From: Oscillibacter valericigenes
Lineage (GTDB): Bacteria; Bacillota; Clostridia; Oscillospirales; Oscillospiraceae
Length of the DNA: 54,972 bases
Assembly: GCF_016902445.1 (NCBI RefSeq)
Contig: NZ_JACSNX010000018.1
Location: forward strand, 1 to 54,972
Reading direction: 5' to 3'
Shown: positions 2,243-54,972 of the stretch, piece after piece
Position numbering within the stretch: the stretch's first letter is position 1
Layout of the letters: each line of letters begins with the position of its first letter
Position numbers and translations under genes: made by a program
Notes under the pieces: model-generated
What the model was told of the DNA's origin: nothing
The model's database searches: none
What the model saw: the letters and a program-made list of their open reading frames with translations, nothing else

Positions 2243-2293
2243 TTACTTCTCTCCCCTCAGCTCGATGATCCGGTCACGCAGCACAGCGGCGTA
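2243..2293 (-). repeat. Outer (probably original) copy of the uvrB 3' end
   Basis: These 51 bases encode YAAVLRDRIIELRGEK and stop, identical at protein level to the last 16 residues of UvrB (2452-2502). Four codons differ, all silently (TAT/TAC, GTT/GTG, TTG/CTG, AGA/CGT), and the stop is TAA instead of TGA. The copy provides the Shine-Dalgarno sequence for the next gene, so I read it as the native end of uvrB from before E1 was inserted (inference). Confidence 0.9.
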
Positions 2294-2451
2294 TTTTCCC
2301 ACACGGCTCCGCCGTGCGGGAGCCCTTTCATTTTACCAACCGGCCGGAAATGAATTCCGTCCGGTTCAAGGTTTTGCCTCTGGCAAAACACTTGTGCGCC
2401 GGACTCCCGGCGGTTCGAGTACGCCGCACGCCCTGTTTCGCCCTTCTCCGC
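2294..2451 (-). mobile_element. E1: small structured element at the 3' end of uvrB
   Basis: A non-coding segment lying between the uvrB stop and a second copy of the uvrB 3' end. On the uvrB strand it contains four hairpins in order: H1 at 2398-2411 (GCCGG-GAGT-CCGGC), H2 at 2367-2394 (CAAG, 8-bp stem, AGA loop, CTTG), H3 at 2338-2366 (12-nt arms with one A-G mismatch, TTCAT loop) and H4 at 2298-2320 (GGA loop). H1-H3 recur with the same spacing and compensatory changes in E2 and E3. No protein is encoded. That it is mobile is inferred from the three copies and the flanking duplication. Confidence 0.75.
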
Positions 2452-4422
2452 TCACTTCTCTCCCCTCAGCTCGATGATCCGGTCTCTCAAAACAGCGGCA
2501 TACTCGAACTCCAGCATCTTGGATGCTTCCTTCATTTCCTTTTCCAGTCTGGCGATCTCCGCGGCCCGCTCCTGCTCCGTCAGCTTGCGCTTCTTGTGGG
2601 CCCGGAGGGTGTCCTCCTCGGCGGTCTGGGAGATCTCCAGGATCTCCCGGACGCCCTTGATGATGGTCTTGGGCACAATGCCGTGCGCCTGGTTGTAGGC
2701 GTCCTGGATGGACCGGCGGCGCTCCGTCTCGTCGATGGCCGCCCGCATGGAGGGGGTGATCTCGTCGGCGTACATGATGACCAGGCCGTCGGCATTCCGG
2801 GCCGCCCGGCCGATGGTCTGGATGAGGGATGTCTCGGACCGGAGGAAGCCCTCCTTGTCCGCGTCCAGGATGGCCACCAGGCTCACCTCCGGCAGGTCCA
2901 GGCCCTCCCGCAGGAGGTTGATGCCCACCAGCACGTCGAACTCCCCCAGCCGCAGGCTGCGGATGATCTCCATCCGCTCGATGGTCTGGACGTCGGAGTG
3001 CATGTACCGCACCCGGATGCCGGCGTTTTTCAGATACTCCGTCAGGTCCTCCGCCATCTTCTTGGTGAGGGTGGTCACCAGCACCCGCTCGTCCCGGGCG
3101 GCTCTTGCGCGGATCTCGTCCATGAGATCGTCGATCTGGCCGGTGACGGGCCGGACCTCCACCCTGGGATCCAGCAGACCCGTGGGCCGGATCACCTGCT
3201 CTACCACCTGGTCCGCCCGCTCCCGCTCATAGGGGCCCGGCGTGGCGGAGACGAACACCGCCTGGCCGATGCGCCCCTCGAACTCCTCGAATTTTAACGG
3301 CCGGTTGTCGTAGGCGCAGGGCAGCCGGAAGCCGTACTTCACCAGGGAGTCCTTCCGGGCGTGGTCGCCGTTGTACATGGCCCGGACCTGGGGCAGCGTC
3401 ACGTGGCTCTCGTCCACGAACAGCAAAAAGTCGTCCGGGAAGAAGTCCAGCAGCGTCATGGGGGCGGAGCCCTCCGGCCGGCCGGAGATGATGCGGGAGT
3501 AGTTCTCGATGCCGGAGCAGTAGCCCAGTTCCGCCATCATCTCCATGTCGTACTCCGTCCGCTGGCGGAGCCGCTGGGCCTCCACCAGCTGGTTATTGTC
3601 TGTAAAGTATTGGACCTGTTCCTCCAGCTCCCGCCGGATCTCCTGGATGGCCCTGTCCATCTTGTCCTTGGTGGTGACATAGTGGCTGGCGGGATAAATC
3701 GCCACATGGTTCAGCACCCGGTTCACACTGCCGGTGACAGGGTTGAAGTCGCTGATGCGGTCGATCTCGTCCCCGAAGAACTCCACCCGGATGGCGTGGT
3801 CCCGGTAGTAGGCGGGGTAGATCTCCACGGTATCCCCCCGGACCCGGACCATGTTGCGTTCAAAGGCGATGTCGTTGCGCTCGTAGCGGATCTCGATCAG
3901 GCGGCGCAGCAGCTCGTCCCGGTCCCACTCCGCCCCCACCCGGAGAGACACCACCAGGTTGGCGAAGTCATCCGGCTCGCCCAGGCCGTAGATGCAGGAG
4001 ACGGAGGACACCACGATCACATCCCGCCGCTCCAGCAGGGCGCAGGTGGCGGACAGCCGCAGCCGGTCGATCTCGTCGTTGGTGGAGGCGTCCTTGGCGA
4101 TATAGGTGTCCGTGTGGGGGATATAGGCCTCCGGCTGGTAGTAGTCGTAGTAGGAGACGAAGTACTCCACCGCGTTGTTGGGGAAAAACTCCTTGAACTC
4201 GGCACACAGCTGGGCGGCCAGGGTCTTGTTGTGGGCCAGCACCAGCGTGGGCCGCTGGACGGCCTCGATGACCTTGGCCATGGTGAAGGTCTTGCCGGAG
4301 CCGGTGACGCCCAGCAGCACCTGCTCCTTCAGCCCGTTCTCGATGCCCTCCGCCAGCTTGGCGATGGCCTGGGGCTGGTCGCCGGAGGGCTGGTATTCAG
4401 AAACAACTTCAAATTTCGGCAT
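2452..4422 (-). CDS. uvrB: Excinuclease ABC subunit B
   Basis: A 656-residue UvrB, the damage-verifying helicase of nucleotide excision repair that works with UvrA and UvrC. Visible marks: Walker A GVTGSGKT near residue 40, the beta-hairpin region FVSYYDYYQPEAYIP near residue 95, the DESHVT Walker B near residue 340, helicase motif VGINLLREGLDLPEVSLV, and the C-terminal UVR motif that contacts UvrC. Length is normal. The ATG at 4422 (MPKFEVVSEYQPSGDQP) is used because GGAGGG precedes it and family members start there. An SOS box overlaps its promoter. The last 17 codons are duplicated beyond element E1. Confidence 0.97.
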   Translation of the reverse strand: MPKFEVVSEYQPSGDQPQAIAKLAEGIENGLKEQVLLGVTGSGKTFTMAKVIEAVQRPTLVLAHNKTLAAQLCAEFKEFFPNNAVEYFVSYYDYYQPEAYIPHTDTYIAKDASTNDEIDRLRLSATCALLERRDVIVVSSVSCIYGLGEPDDFANLVVSLRVGAEWDRDELLRRLIEIRYERNDIAFERNMVRVRGDTVEIYPAYYRDHAIRVEFFGDEIDRISDFNPVTGSVNRVLNHVAIYPASHYVTTKDKMDRAIQEIRRELEEQVQYFTDNNQLVEAQRLRQRTEYDMEMMAELGYCSGIENYSRIISGRPEGSAPMTLLDFFPDDFLLFVDESHVTLPQVRAMYNGDHARKDSLVKYGFRLPCAYDNRPLKFEEFEGRIGQAVFVSATPGPYERERADQVVEQVIRPTGLLDPRVEVRPVTGQIDDLMDEIRARAARDERVLVTTLTKKMAEDLTEYLKNAGIRVRYMHSDVQTIERMEIIRSLRLGEFDVLVGINLLREGLDLPEVSLVAILDADKEGFLRSETSLIQTIGRAARNADGLVIMYADEITPSMRAAIDETERRRSIQDAYNQAHGIVPKTIIKGVREILEISQTAEEDTLRAHKKRKLTEQERAAEIARLEKEMKEASKMLEFEYAAVLRDRIIELRGEK

Positions 4423-4466
4423 TGCAGCAGACCCTCCACCCAACAAACAGATTTTCAGCCACGGCC

Positions 4467-4505
4467 ATCCTACCACACCCGCCATCTTTTTGCAACATTT
4501 GTTCG
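4467..4505 (-). promoter_or_regulatory. uvrB promoter with LexA (SOS) box
   Basis: On the minus strand TTGCAA (4490-4495) and TAGGAT (4467-4472) are separated by exactly 17 bases. The 14 bases at 4492-4505 read CGAACAAATGTTGC, a near match to the Gram-positive LexA site CGAAC-N4-GTTCG, and overlap the -35. DNA-damage induction of uvrB is therefore expected. Confidence 0.75.
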
Positions 4506-4544
4506 ATATTTATGTTCAGTAGCGTACCCCGGGAAAAGGGACTA

Positions 4545-4717
4545 GGGGAAAACCTCCGGTTTTCCCCAGTTAATCTGCCTCCGGCAGATCAAAAAATTGA
4601 AATCATTTTCGGCAGGGCGTGTACCTGCCGAAAATACCCTGACCCAAGCGCCTTGGGCGCGTTCACCAGTCCGCAGACTGGTGGTGGGGGTTCTAAAGGG
4701 GGAGCCTGCTCCCCTTT
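4545..4717. repeat. Array of six consecutive hairpins between radC and uvrB
   Basis: Six perfect or near-perfect stem-loops follow one another in 173 bases: 4545-4567, 4573-4589, 4605-4635, 4648-4660, 4665-4682 and 4695-4717. Several have three-base loops; on the minus strand two of these read GGA. The first one after the radC stop could act as a terminator. No ORF or RNA family is recognised. The remaining bases up to the uvrB promoter hold nothing else that I can name. Confidence 0.75.
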
Positions 4718-54427: not shown

Positions 54428-54613
54428 TTACACCTCCCGTTCAAAGATCAGGTCCACCATGCTGATCCCGCCGTGGCCCGTAAAGCTCACCGGAAAAAAG
54501 CCCACGTACCGCCAGCCCTCAGCGGCGTATTTGTCGATGCGTTCCCGGTGCTCTCGGGAACCGGACAGGAACCCGCCGCCGGTATCCACAGGGATATACT
54601 TGTACTGATACAT
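54428..54613 (-). CDS. DUF4177-like small protein
   Basis: A 61-residue protein, MYQYKYIPVDTGGGFLSGSREHRERIDKYAAEGWRYVGFFPV ... MVDLIFEREV, matching the DUF4177 pattern of a small beta-alpha-beta protein with a conserved IDKYAAEGW segment. Function unknown. ATG at 54613 has GGAGAGG upstream. Monocistronic; the terminator of the preceding gene lies 37 bases upstream. Confidence 0.85.
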   Translation of the reverse strand: MYQYKYIPVDTGGGFLSGSREHRERIDKYAAEGWRYVGFFPVSFTGHGGISMVDLIFEREV

Positions 54614-54649
54614 GTGTTTCCTCTCCTTTCCTGCAAACCGCTGTCCTGC

Positions 54650-54684
54650 AAAAACAGCGGGGAGTGGGCCTCCCCGCCGTTTTG
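54650..54684. terminator. Terminator behind the gene at the window edge
   Basis: On the minus strand CGGGGAG-GCCCA-CTCCCCG and flanking pairs, then TGTTTTT. It immediately follows the outer copy of the 3' end at 54702, so it looks like that gene's original terminator. Confidence 0.8.
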
Positions 54685-54701
54685 ATTCGCGCAAGATTTT
54701 G

Positions 54702-54779
54702 TCACTTCTCCTCCGCTGCCTGCAGGGCCTTCGCCTCGGCGATGGCCTTCTCCTGGGCTGCCGGCGGGCAGTCGCCCCA
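54702..54779 (-). repeat. Outer copy of the 3' end of the gene at the window edge
   Basis: 54705-54758 matches 54919-54972 with a single difference, GCA/GCG for Ala, and the stop is TGA instead of TAA. It encodes AQEKAIAEAKALQAAEEK and stop. The match may extend further left, but the inner gene is cut by the window edge, so this cannot be tested. The terminator at 54650-54684 is right behind it. Confidence 0.88.
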
Positions 54780-54915
54780 CAGGCCGCTGTGCGCCCTGCG
54801 GGGACCCCGCATTGGACTCAAATCGTCCGAAATGAATTCGGCCGATTTCAAGATTTTGCCTCTGGCAAAATGCTTGGACGCCGGACTCCCGGCGGAGAAG
54901 CGCGGACTGCCTTTC
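54780..54915 (-). mobile_element. E3: small structured element at the 3' end of the edge gene
   Basis: H1 at 54880-54893 and H2 at 54849-54876 are nearly the same as in E1; H3 at 54820-54848 has different arms from E1 (AAATCG/CGATTT versus AACCGG/CCGGTT) with pairing intact and the same TTCAT loop; H4 at 54797-54811. The left border is uncertain because the extent of the copied 3' end is not known. Confidence 0.72.
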
Positions 54916-54972
54916 TTACTTCTCCTCCGCCGCCTGCAGGGCCTTCGCCTCGGCGATGGCCTTCTCCTGGGC
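54916..54972 (-). CDS. 3' end of an unidentified gene (cut by the window)
   Basis: Only the last 18 codons and the TAA stop are in the window. They encode AQEKAIAEAKALQAAEEK, an Ala/Glu/Lys-rich helix that may be a coiled coil. The identity of the gene cannot be told. Its end is duplicated beyond E3. Confidence 0.75.
   Translation of the reverse strand, partial: AQEKAIAEAKALQAAEEK

Follow-up and report, generated by a model that had tools for sequence, protein, structure and literature searches.

Integrative elements and phages that enter the 3′ ends of genes or tRNA genes bring a replacement end with them and displace the native one; they measure kilobases and encode an integrase. REPINs, in turn, are not known to carry a target-specific guide or a copy of a gene end, and RAYTs are of the Y1 type. 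Addressing by base pairing is exemplified by the insertion sequence IS608, which keeps its target in the left flank and recognises the cleavage site through the pairing of a four-nucleotide guide placed 5′ of a hairpin; for this element, extended pairing has been engineered for targeting (PMC5934647). The subject here is a family of hairpin elements represented by three copies, E1, E2 and E3, in a stretch of 54,972 nucleotides from Oscillibacter valericigenes (contig NZ_JACSNX010000018.1, hereafter the window). With confidence somewhat above even, each element is read as the right part of a non-coding unit of ~214 bp that likely enters and leaves one specific site in a gene by guide pairing, its enzyme probably being supplied in trans. 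At the level of sequence comparison, the architecture of the unit, a guide straddling the insertion point, the hairpins H1 to H4, the empty sites in relatives and the sharing of H1–H4 only, in the pairs compared, between different genes are demonstrated below.

The original prediction had placed a non-coding segment of ~134–158 bp after the stop codon of each of three genes in the window, followed by a second copy of the same gene's 3′ end. This arrangement is confirmed at all three places, with 49, 87 and 61 bp aligned between the two ends. The segments are thus real, but the mobile part is better equated with the complete unit of ~214 bp, gene-end copy included. The insertion point in the gene is designated ‘s’, and the unit is measured from s in the gene to s after H4; the ‘left copy’ is the restored gene end and the ‘right copy’ the displaced native end. 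All three elements, and all their features given below, lie on the minus strand, which is the sense strand of the upstream gene.

The host gene of E1 is uvrB (open reading frame at 2452..4485; NCBIfam equivalog UvrB), which ends in the left copy (2454..2502, with s between 2503 and 2502) and is restored by it with the stop codon TGA. The target stretch straddling s (2495..2509) is matched at 14 of 15 nt by the guide (2413..2427), the reverse complement of the target around s. Next come the core with H1, H2 and H3 (2331..2416, defined by covariance model R1), the linker with H4 that makes the right end of the unit (2294..2330) and the right copy (2245..2293), the native displaced uvrB end, whose stop codon TAA overlaps the ATG of the next gene as in relatives with an empty site. 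The two copies align over 49 bp at 90% and differ by synonymous changes plus TGA/TAA. E2 follows a response regulator gene (open reading frame at 11887..12669; Pfam Response_reg and Trans_reg_C). Its left copy (11885..11971, s between 11972 and 11971) and right copy (11664..11750) are 100% identical over 87 bp, and a perfect 12-nt guide (11880..11891) that overlaps the end of the left copy pairs with the target at 11968..11979; the core H1–H3 (model R1) is at 11787..11865 and the linker with H4 at 11751..11786. In E3, the left copy (54912..54972) is cut by the contig edge and s lies off the contig; the repeat aligns over 61 bp at 95% and continues off the edge. The right copy is placed at 54698..54773, of which 54698–54758 is the aligned part and the start at 54773 was extended by eye via the orthologue in the relative G024; the core (model R1) is at 54813..54898 and the linker with H4 at 54774..54812. 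The automatic test detects no guide in E3, the element's own target lying off the contig; the checkable part consists of 8 nt (54904..54911) that match, by eye, the orthologous target in G024 (L081). Over the elements, the window is without a match in Rfam at the gathering cut-off, and permissive settings on E1 and six loci gave nothing convincing below it.

Model R1 was built from 11 copies in the genome of the window (G000, 96.5% complete), namely E1–E3 and eight sister copies, and the search with it, as proposed originally, recovered many more. It matches 29 copies in G000 at E <1e-4 (31 at E up to 1) and 19 of the 60 genomes of a relatives search in which G000 is included. Within the genus, 18 of 37 genomes are matched and copy number is patchy, from 0 to 39 per genome; G008 has 24 hits and G042, from another family, has 69. 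In an even draw of 295 genomes from 149 genera of the order, matches were obtained in 24 genomes and 14 genera, also patchily. Among the matches listed in a scan for the H2 motif alone are named records of Flavonifractor, Pseudoflavonifractor, Intestinimonas, Oscillibacter and Dysosmobacter, including contigs of Flavonifractor plautii ATCC 29863. In IMG/VR, the exact H2 motif is found in only two contigs (viral_contigs L362 and L363). Several contigs of G000 and G013 break at element copies, so that assemblies may undercount them.

Hairpins H1, H2 and H3, on which the original description relied, are well supported. In 99 aligned copies (98 distinct; the alignment is fitted to the model and leans towards pairing), two-sided changes are present at 27 of 29 base pairs, the covariation score is 0.434 versus 0.129 for shuffled data, and paired cells amount to 99.1% in H1, 99.6% in H2 and 86.0% in H3. 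A fourth hairpin, H4, follows H3 and abuts the right gene-end copy; seven or more pairs are predicted for it in every one of 118 copies, a count made without a shuffled control. G-U pairs represent 2.1% of the standard stem pairs (56 of 2669), a share that is low for an RNA and suggests selection on DNA hairpins or on both strands. Comparison of the seven closest core pairs situated at different genes delimits the constant part: homology begins at or shortly before H1 and stops with H4, and gene end, spacer and guide differ, with one pair (L126 and L102) alike in the gene end too and possibly representing two related targets. Since only H1–H4 is common to different genes, the constant module is taken to be ~120 bp long, with patch and address specific to each site.

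A direct repeat of the gene end (score of at least 18) flanks 115 of the 151 copies examined, whereas 300 mismatched flank pairs have a median score of 8, and the only four that reach 18 probably combine copies at the same target gene. A strict set of 93 copies was defined by a repeat score of at least 25 and a right copy beginning 25–62 nt past the core; the other 58 have no repeat, tandem neighbours or other spacing. In the strict set, unit length is tightly distributed (median 214 bp, interquartile range 201–225, range 167–266), which leaves no room for an integrase gene; the right copy begins 35–42 nt past the core in 75 of the 93, repeats are 29–112 bp long and the copies belong to 44 clusters of gene ends. 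Named genomes give a similar picture, although they may partly be the same genomes as in the earlier sets: from 129 H2-motif places among the matches listed, 11 were too close to an edge and 118 were tested, of which 86 have the repeat at the expected place, with a median unit of 212 bp and, over the 118 copies, 57 distinct gene-end clusters.

A putative guide complementary to the insertion point is a feature beyond the original prediction; also new with respect to it are insertions at gene 5′ ends, the mainly synonymous differences between gene-end copies, the tight unit length and the conservation of H1–H4 only between sites. The guide is the reverse complement of the gene across s and lies directly 5′ of H1 or of an extra hairpin preceding H1. 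Usually ~9–15 nt long, it typically reaches from −7 to +8 around s. When guide regions are compared with their own genes, a score of at least 11 is attained in 40 of 93 pairs, 39 of them straddling s, versus 13 of 2000 mismatched pairs with none straddling; at a score of at least 9, the figures are 56 of 93 (53 straddling) and 120 of 2000 (25 straddling). The control in direct orientation is confounded by self-overlap unless the gene-end copy is excluded (28 of 93 at a score of at least 9, as against 3 of 94 with the copy excluded). With the element side restricted to sequence outside that copy, 57 of 94 own pairs attain a score of at least 10, versus 2 of 94 in direct orientation and 25 of 2000 mismatched pairs. 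Uninterrupted perfect runs touching s have a median of 9 nt, are at least 12 nt long in 34 of 116 cases and extend to 19 nt at most. At several shared sites the guide varies along with its target, as judged by eye (e.g. CAACG versus CAATG).

Because this pattern was found after the fact, it was retested on copies from other genera of the family. The 40 copies used were hand-picked, mainly from the upper part of the order-level match list, with omission of contig edges, other families and some others; the repeat threshold was here a score of at least 18. The repeat is at the expected place in 25 of them, and a guide scoring at least 9 is present in 24 of these 25, straddling s in 23, whereas 29 of 1000 mismatched pairs reach this score and 5 straddle. 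In the named genomes, among the matches listed, a guide scoring at least 10 is seen in 56 of 86 copies (52 straddling s), as against 15 of 1000 mismatched pairs (10 straddling).

Both gene ends bear the mark of coding sequence. The strict count admitted a pair only when it was cleanly in frame and its right copy ended in a stop codon at the corresponding position; the 56 pairs retained (999 codons) display 138 synonymous and 40 nonsynonymous differences, equivalent to a synonymous divergence (dS) of 0.195 versus a nonsynonymous divergence (dN) of 0.0175, and the stop codon differs in 8 pairs. A looser count on 62 pairs, including a few misframed ones, yields dS 0.215 and dN 0.023, and 56 of the 62 retain the stop. 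Along the repeat the differences are distributed fairly uniformly, and in 19 of 113 pairs the two copies are identical. That differences are mainly synonymous implies that both copies work as gene ends now or did so in the past. The coding signal in both ends would be accounted for if one copy had been imported along with a foreign unit, or if the site alternated between being filled and being empty.

The empty sites that the original prediction envisaged in relatives do exist for the uvrB 3′ site, the uvrB 5′ site and the response regulator site. The last, in 21 loci of the genus, is filled in G000 and G018, single-copy in 17 and unreadable in 2. Among the 17 uvrB 5′ sites examined, those of G006 and G008 are filled, with two starts 227 nt apart, and 15 are single, although in one of the latter the pattern matches a second time at an unrelated place. 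In relatives such as G007 and G008, the 3′ end of uvrB has the native arrangement, its stop codon TAA overlapping the next ATG as in the right copy of E1; a decayed version of E1 is found in G024. Downstream of uvrB in G018 (L327), a different insertion with internal repeats (AGCGAAGCGCTGCC...) occupies the E1 site. Between G000 and G018, several bases of the response regulator gene have changed in both copies alike, so gene conversion also acts.

An automatic rule assigns 77 of the 93 repeat copies to gene 3′ ends in sense orientation, or ~72 after inspection, at least five 5′-end copies (L051, L093, L105, L127 and L165) having been misassigned as 3′ by the rule. The proposed location at gene 3′ ends is therefore correct for most copies, but 5′ ends are hit too and some copies adjoin tRNA genes; similarly, the idea of an element that enters a gene end and rebuilds the C-terminus fits at 3′ ends, but at 5′ ends the rebuilt part is the gene start. 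The s-to-stop distance at 3′ ends, measured to the last base of the stop codon, is 21–108 (median 58, n = 77 with a few misassigned), which fits the room before the guide. In thirteen 5′-end insertions read in detail, the element is antisense to the gene. The repeat stops within 2 bases of the start codon in eight of them, and there the ribosome-binding site of the intact gene, judged by eye, is not the one in front of the displaced fragment, which retains its own upstream region. The repeat takes in the ribosome-binding site in L038, L098 and L105, and ends before the start codon by 5 bases in L165 and by 9 in L122. Erosion of longer repeats was considered as the cause of ends at stop or start codons and rejected, since pairs with 97–98% identity end there too. 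In two uvrB 5′ insertions (L073 and L122), the unit parts an apparent SOS box (GAACAAATGTTG, by eye) from the intact uvrB, so that transcription from there would pass through the unit. A GA precedes s in 37 of 116 cases versus a baseline of 8.3%, and this target motif resembles the right end TGGGGA.

Targets named by profile are UvrB, FabK, PrfC, LepA, HisS, RsmH, GlyS, AspS and a molybdate permease, as well as DnaB, EF-Ts, IMP dehydrogenase, phosphoglucose isomerase, a SpoU methylase and DUF711; MutL was identified by eye. UvrB is hit at the 3′ end in G000 and at the 5′ end in other species. An assignment of one 5′ target as lgt was rejected, because the profile search gives the molybdate permease gene.

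Some copies depart from the single-unit arrangement. Tandem arrays of unit plus gene-end copy are seen at L121, L129, L163, L103, L081 and L115, with periods of ~137–224 bp, and an array in G008 has three units at 205 bp. A subclass of the hairpin module adjoins tRNA genes (L031, L032, L035, L037, L039 and L044, by ARAGORN), and L034 has, by eye, a partial tRNA beside the module. ARAGORN found a tRNA beside 6 of the 14 G000 loci scanned, and no repeat was found in those six or in L034; the tRNA-linked copies checked are antisense to the tRNA and lie beside a bidirectional terminator-like hairpin. At L090 and L128 a whole tRNA-Leu appears repeated, and at L053 a module of the tRNA type without a tRNA adjoins an open frame resembling a serine recombinase, both as judged by eye.

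The search for an enzyme partner gave the following results. Y1_Tnp (PF01797) was not found in G000, G008 or G042; Y1 genes are present in some relatives (e.g. G007 and G024) and also in the copy-free genomes G015, G016, G022, G033, G034 and G036. The reverse transcriptase family PF00078 (RVT_1), which a group II intron or other retroelement would call for, was not found in G000, G004, G018, G024, G028, G029 or G042, the RRXRR family (PF14239, IscB) and the TnpB zinc ribbon (PF07282) not in G000 or G042, and the IS110 family PF02371 not in G000, G004, G007, G024, G029 or G042. Across the 60 genomes, none of these five Pfam families follows copy number, as judged by eye. Since G000 is 96.5% complete, absence from it is strong but not absolute evidence. 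Twenty loci that lack a clear repeat were inspected over flanks of 0.8–1.5 kb, and no autonomous version was seen. A Y1 gene (RAYT-like, by eye) directly after uvrB in G013 (L329) was considered, and the link was dropped because neither repeat nor hairpin module was seen there. The original statement that the element works without a recombinase is thus true of the element itself, and the five families were not found in G000, but a trans-acting enzyme of another family may serve.

In the explanation preferred here, the guide would address the unit to its target and align the two cut ends. Pairing would occur at the level of single-stranded DNA, in the manner of the IS608 end guides with their cleavage site, because wobble pairs are rare in the stems. 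Insertion and excision, both guide-addressed, would take place at s and at the end of H4, the enzyme probably being supplied in trans. The gene-end copy would act as a patch, allowing the unit to reside cheaply in a conserved gene, which is a stable target; without the unit, the displaced native end would return to use, so that both ends would stay coding. Conserved coding ends, as sites, would offer a stable address. Such units would likely be address-guided mobile elements able to enter a gene without breaking it. A bolder version is plausible but falls short of even odds: protein-free mobile DNA with a long base-pairing address of its own, in which a 120-bp hairpin module gains, for each new gene, an antisense target copy as guide and a replacement end as patch and homes across species by guide-directed single-strand insertion, with scarless excision.

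Several observations weigh against this explanation. The guide score is below 9 in 37 of the 93 repeat-bearing copies (about two fifths), and no straddling guide is found at fabK (L117 and L093) or in two of four uvrB 5′ copies (L087 and L165), though these sites are orthologous. Where the two ends differ under the guide, it sides with the left one 18 times, with the right one 12 times and with neither 7 times, a split that does not separate excision from insertion. The repeat itself is under the threshold in 36 of 151 copies, tRNA-linked ones among them, and is at the expected place in 0 of the 12 G042 copies examined; the duplication originally ascribed to every element thus belongs to 115 of the 151. 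It is also missing from the expected place in 15 of the 40 copies from other genera and, among the matches listed, in 32 of the 118 from named genomes. Gene conversion alone can explain some of the identity between copies, and the five enzyme families are not found in G000 or G042 despite 29 copies and 69 hits, respectively. Finally, the explanation gives no account of how patch and guide arise at a new gene.

On the bolder version, the units would constitute a naturally programmable, gene-sparing insertion system with an address that can be read and rewritten. If guide-addressed entry and exit hold, they would show that a mobile element without genes can colonise widely conserved genes by means of its own patch and a target-complementary address, the genes so colonised being uvrB, the Asp, Gly and His tRNA ligase genes, dnaB, the EF-Ts gene, the IMP dehydrogenase gene, fabK and rsmH. 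As the address is usually 9–15 nt long and target-specific, the enzyme could be one whose insertion or excision activity is programmable, and the many target–guide pairs readable in public genomes would allow a direct test of how selfish elements capture targets.

Four other explanations have to be weighed. The units could be non-autonomous single-strand transposons of the IS200/IS605 kind, with H1–H4 as fused ends, Y1 acting in trans and an unusually long left guide plus linker. The logic of IS608 is alike, with recognition of the cleavage site by a pairing guide just 5′ of the base of a hairpin and a target kept in the left flank (PMC5934647); the stems look DNA-like and Y1 genes occur in relatives such as G007 and G024. 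This is nonetheless considered unlikely: Y1_Tnp is lacking in G000, G008 and G042, with their 29, 24 and 69 hits, and Y1 is found in copy-free genomes; no Y1 gene was seen inside any unit; the left end is not constant but, in the pairs compared, consists of a host gene end that changes from target to target; and the guides of IS608 are tetranucleotides (PMC5934647). Alternatively, the module might be a cis-acting RNA of 3′ untranslated regions, with a guide that folds on the host mRNA, H1–H4 as a processing or stability element and the repeat as a by-product of an ancient tandem duplication disseminated through inheritance and recombination. Against such an RNA, 5′-end copies are antisense and cannot fold with the mRNA of their gene, the tRNA-linked copies checked are antisense too, G-U pairs are few, and empty sites coexist with 0–39 copies per genome within one genus. 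It would accommodate the position of 77 of 93 copies (automatic; ~72 inspected) downstream of a gene in the gene's own orientation, the strong covariation and the sites common to several species, and is judged a decidedly weak candidate.

The direct repeat flanking H1–H4 could also be a long and variable target-site duplication, produced by staggered cuts 45–110 bp apart, with the guide as a secondary feature. The 19 identical pairs out of 113 and repeats that run beyond the stop codon are in line with this, but the repeat often ends at a stop or start codon even at 97–100% identity, unit length is tighter than repeat length, the differences are mainly synonymous and a guide is not predicted, so that such transposition has little probability. 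Least probable, and by our estimate scarcely credible, are host replication errors alone, in which template switching at hairpins would generate repeat and inverted stretch without any mobile element. Snap-back synthesis can produce the configuration at issue, in which a tandem repeat adjoins a folded-back copy of the target, and tandem arrays do occur; but a conserved 120-bp H1–H4 module with sharp ends is present at unrelated genes, and the guide keeps a regular register with respect to H1 and s, which is maintained at several orthologous sites.

Elsewhere in the window, three imperfect tandem copies of a GC-rich hairpin repeat of 94–96 bp are situated at 46929–47163, a segment of ~270 bp is repeated at 104–376 and 36794–37065 (95–97% identity, 36.7 kb apart), and an M-box magnesium riboswitch is at 5609–5771 on the plus strand.

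No description of such elements was found among the matches listed in a literature search that had most subscription papers outside its reach; the single-stem repeat motif of PMC11109978 is a different thing, and PMC8632094 yielded nothing on them. Comparison with known systems is nevertheless informative. The units are like IS608 and the IS200/IS605 family in combining a hairpin with a 5′ guide that pairs with the cleavage site, a target in the left flank and compactness, but the IS608 guide has 4 nt, as against usually ~9–15 nt straddling s here (PMC5934647). In addition, a host gene end is interposed here between left end and guide, and no TnpA is found in the element or in G000; with no Y1 enzyme found in G000 or G042, the family cannot be filed under IS608. 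With the bridge RNA of IS110, the units share a base-pairing address on a structured element and a short shared core at the junction; the bridge RNA combines a donor loop with two target guides that lie on opposite strands, and the recombinase is encoded by IS110 itself (PMC11208160), whereas the guide found here is contiguous and on one strand, the element is without a recombinase and G000 has no IS110 match. REPINs resemble the units as short non-coding hairpin elements with many extragenic copies, thought to be mobilised in trans by RAYT (PMC3116915), but Y1_Tnp was not found in G000. Small MITE-like repeats of bacteria, RUP and YPAL/RU-2 among them, are likewise below 200 bp, non-coding and structured; YPAL duplications measure 3–26 bp and most repeats of this type have terminal inverted repeats (PMC2229807), whereas here the left end is target-specific and repeats are 29–112 bp long. 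As regards a possible tie to miniature inverted-repeat transposable elements, with terminal inverted repeats shared with an insertion sequence, no constant left end was seen in the unit pairs compared. Like the integrative elements and phages of gene 3′ ends, finally, the units replace a gene end by one that they carry and displace the native end, but they do so with ~214 bp of non-coding DNA and, among the matches listed, at 57 gene-end clusters in 118 copies.

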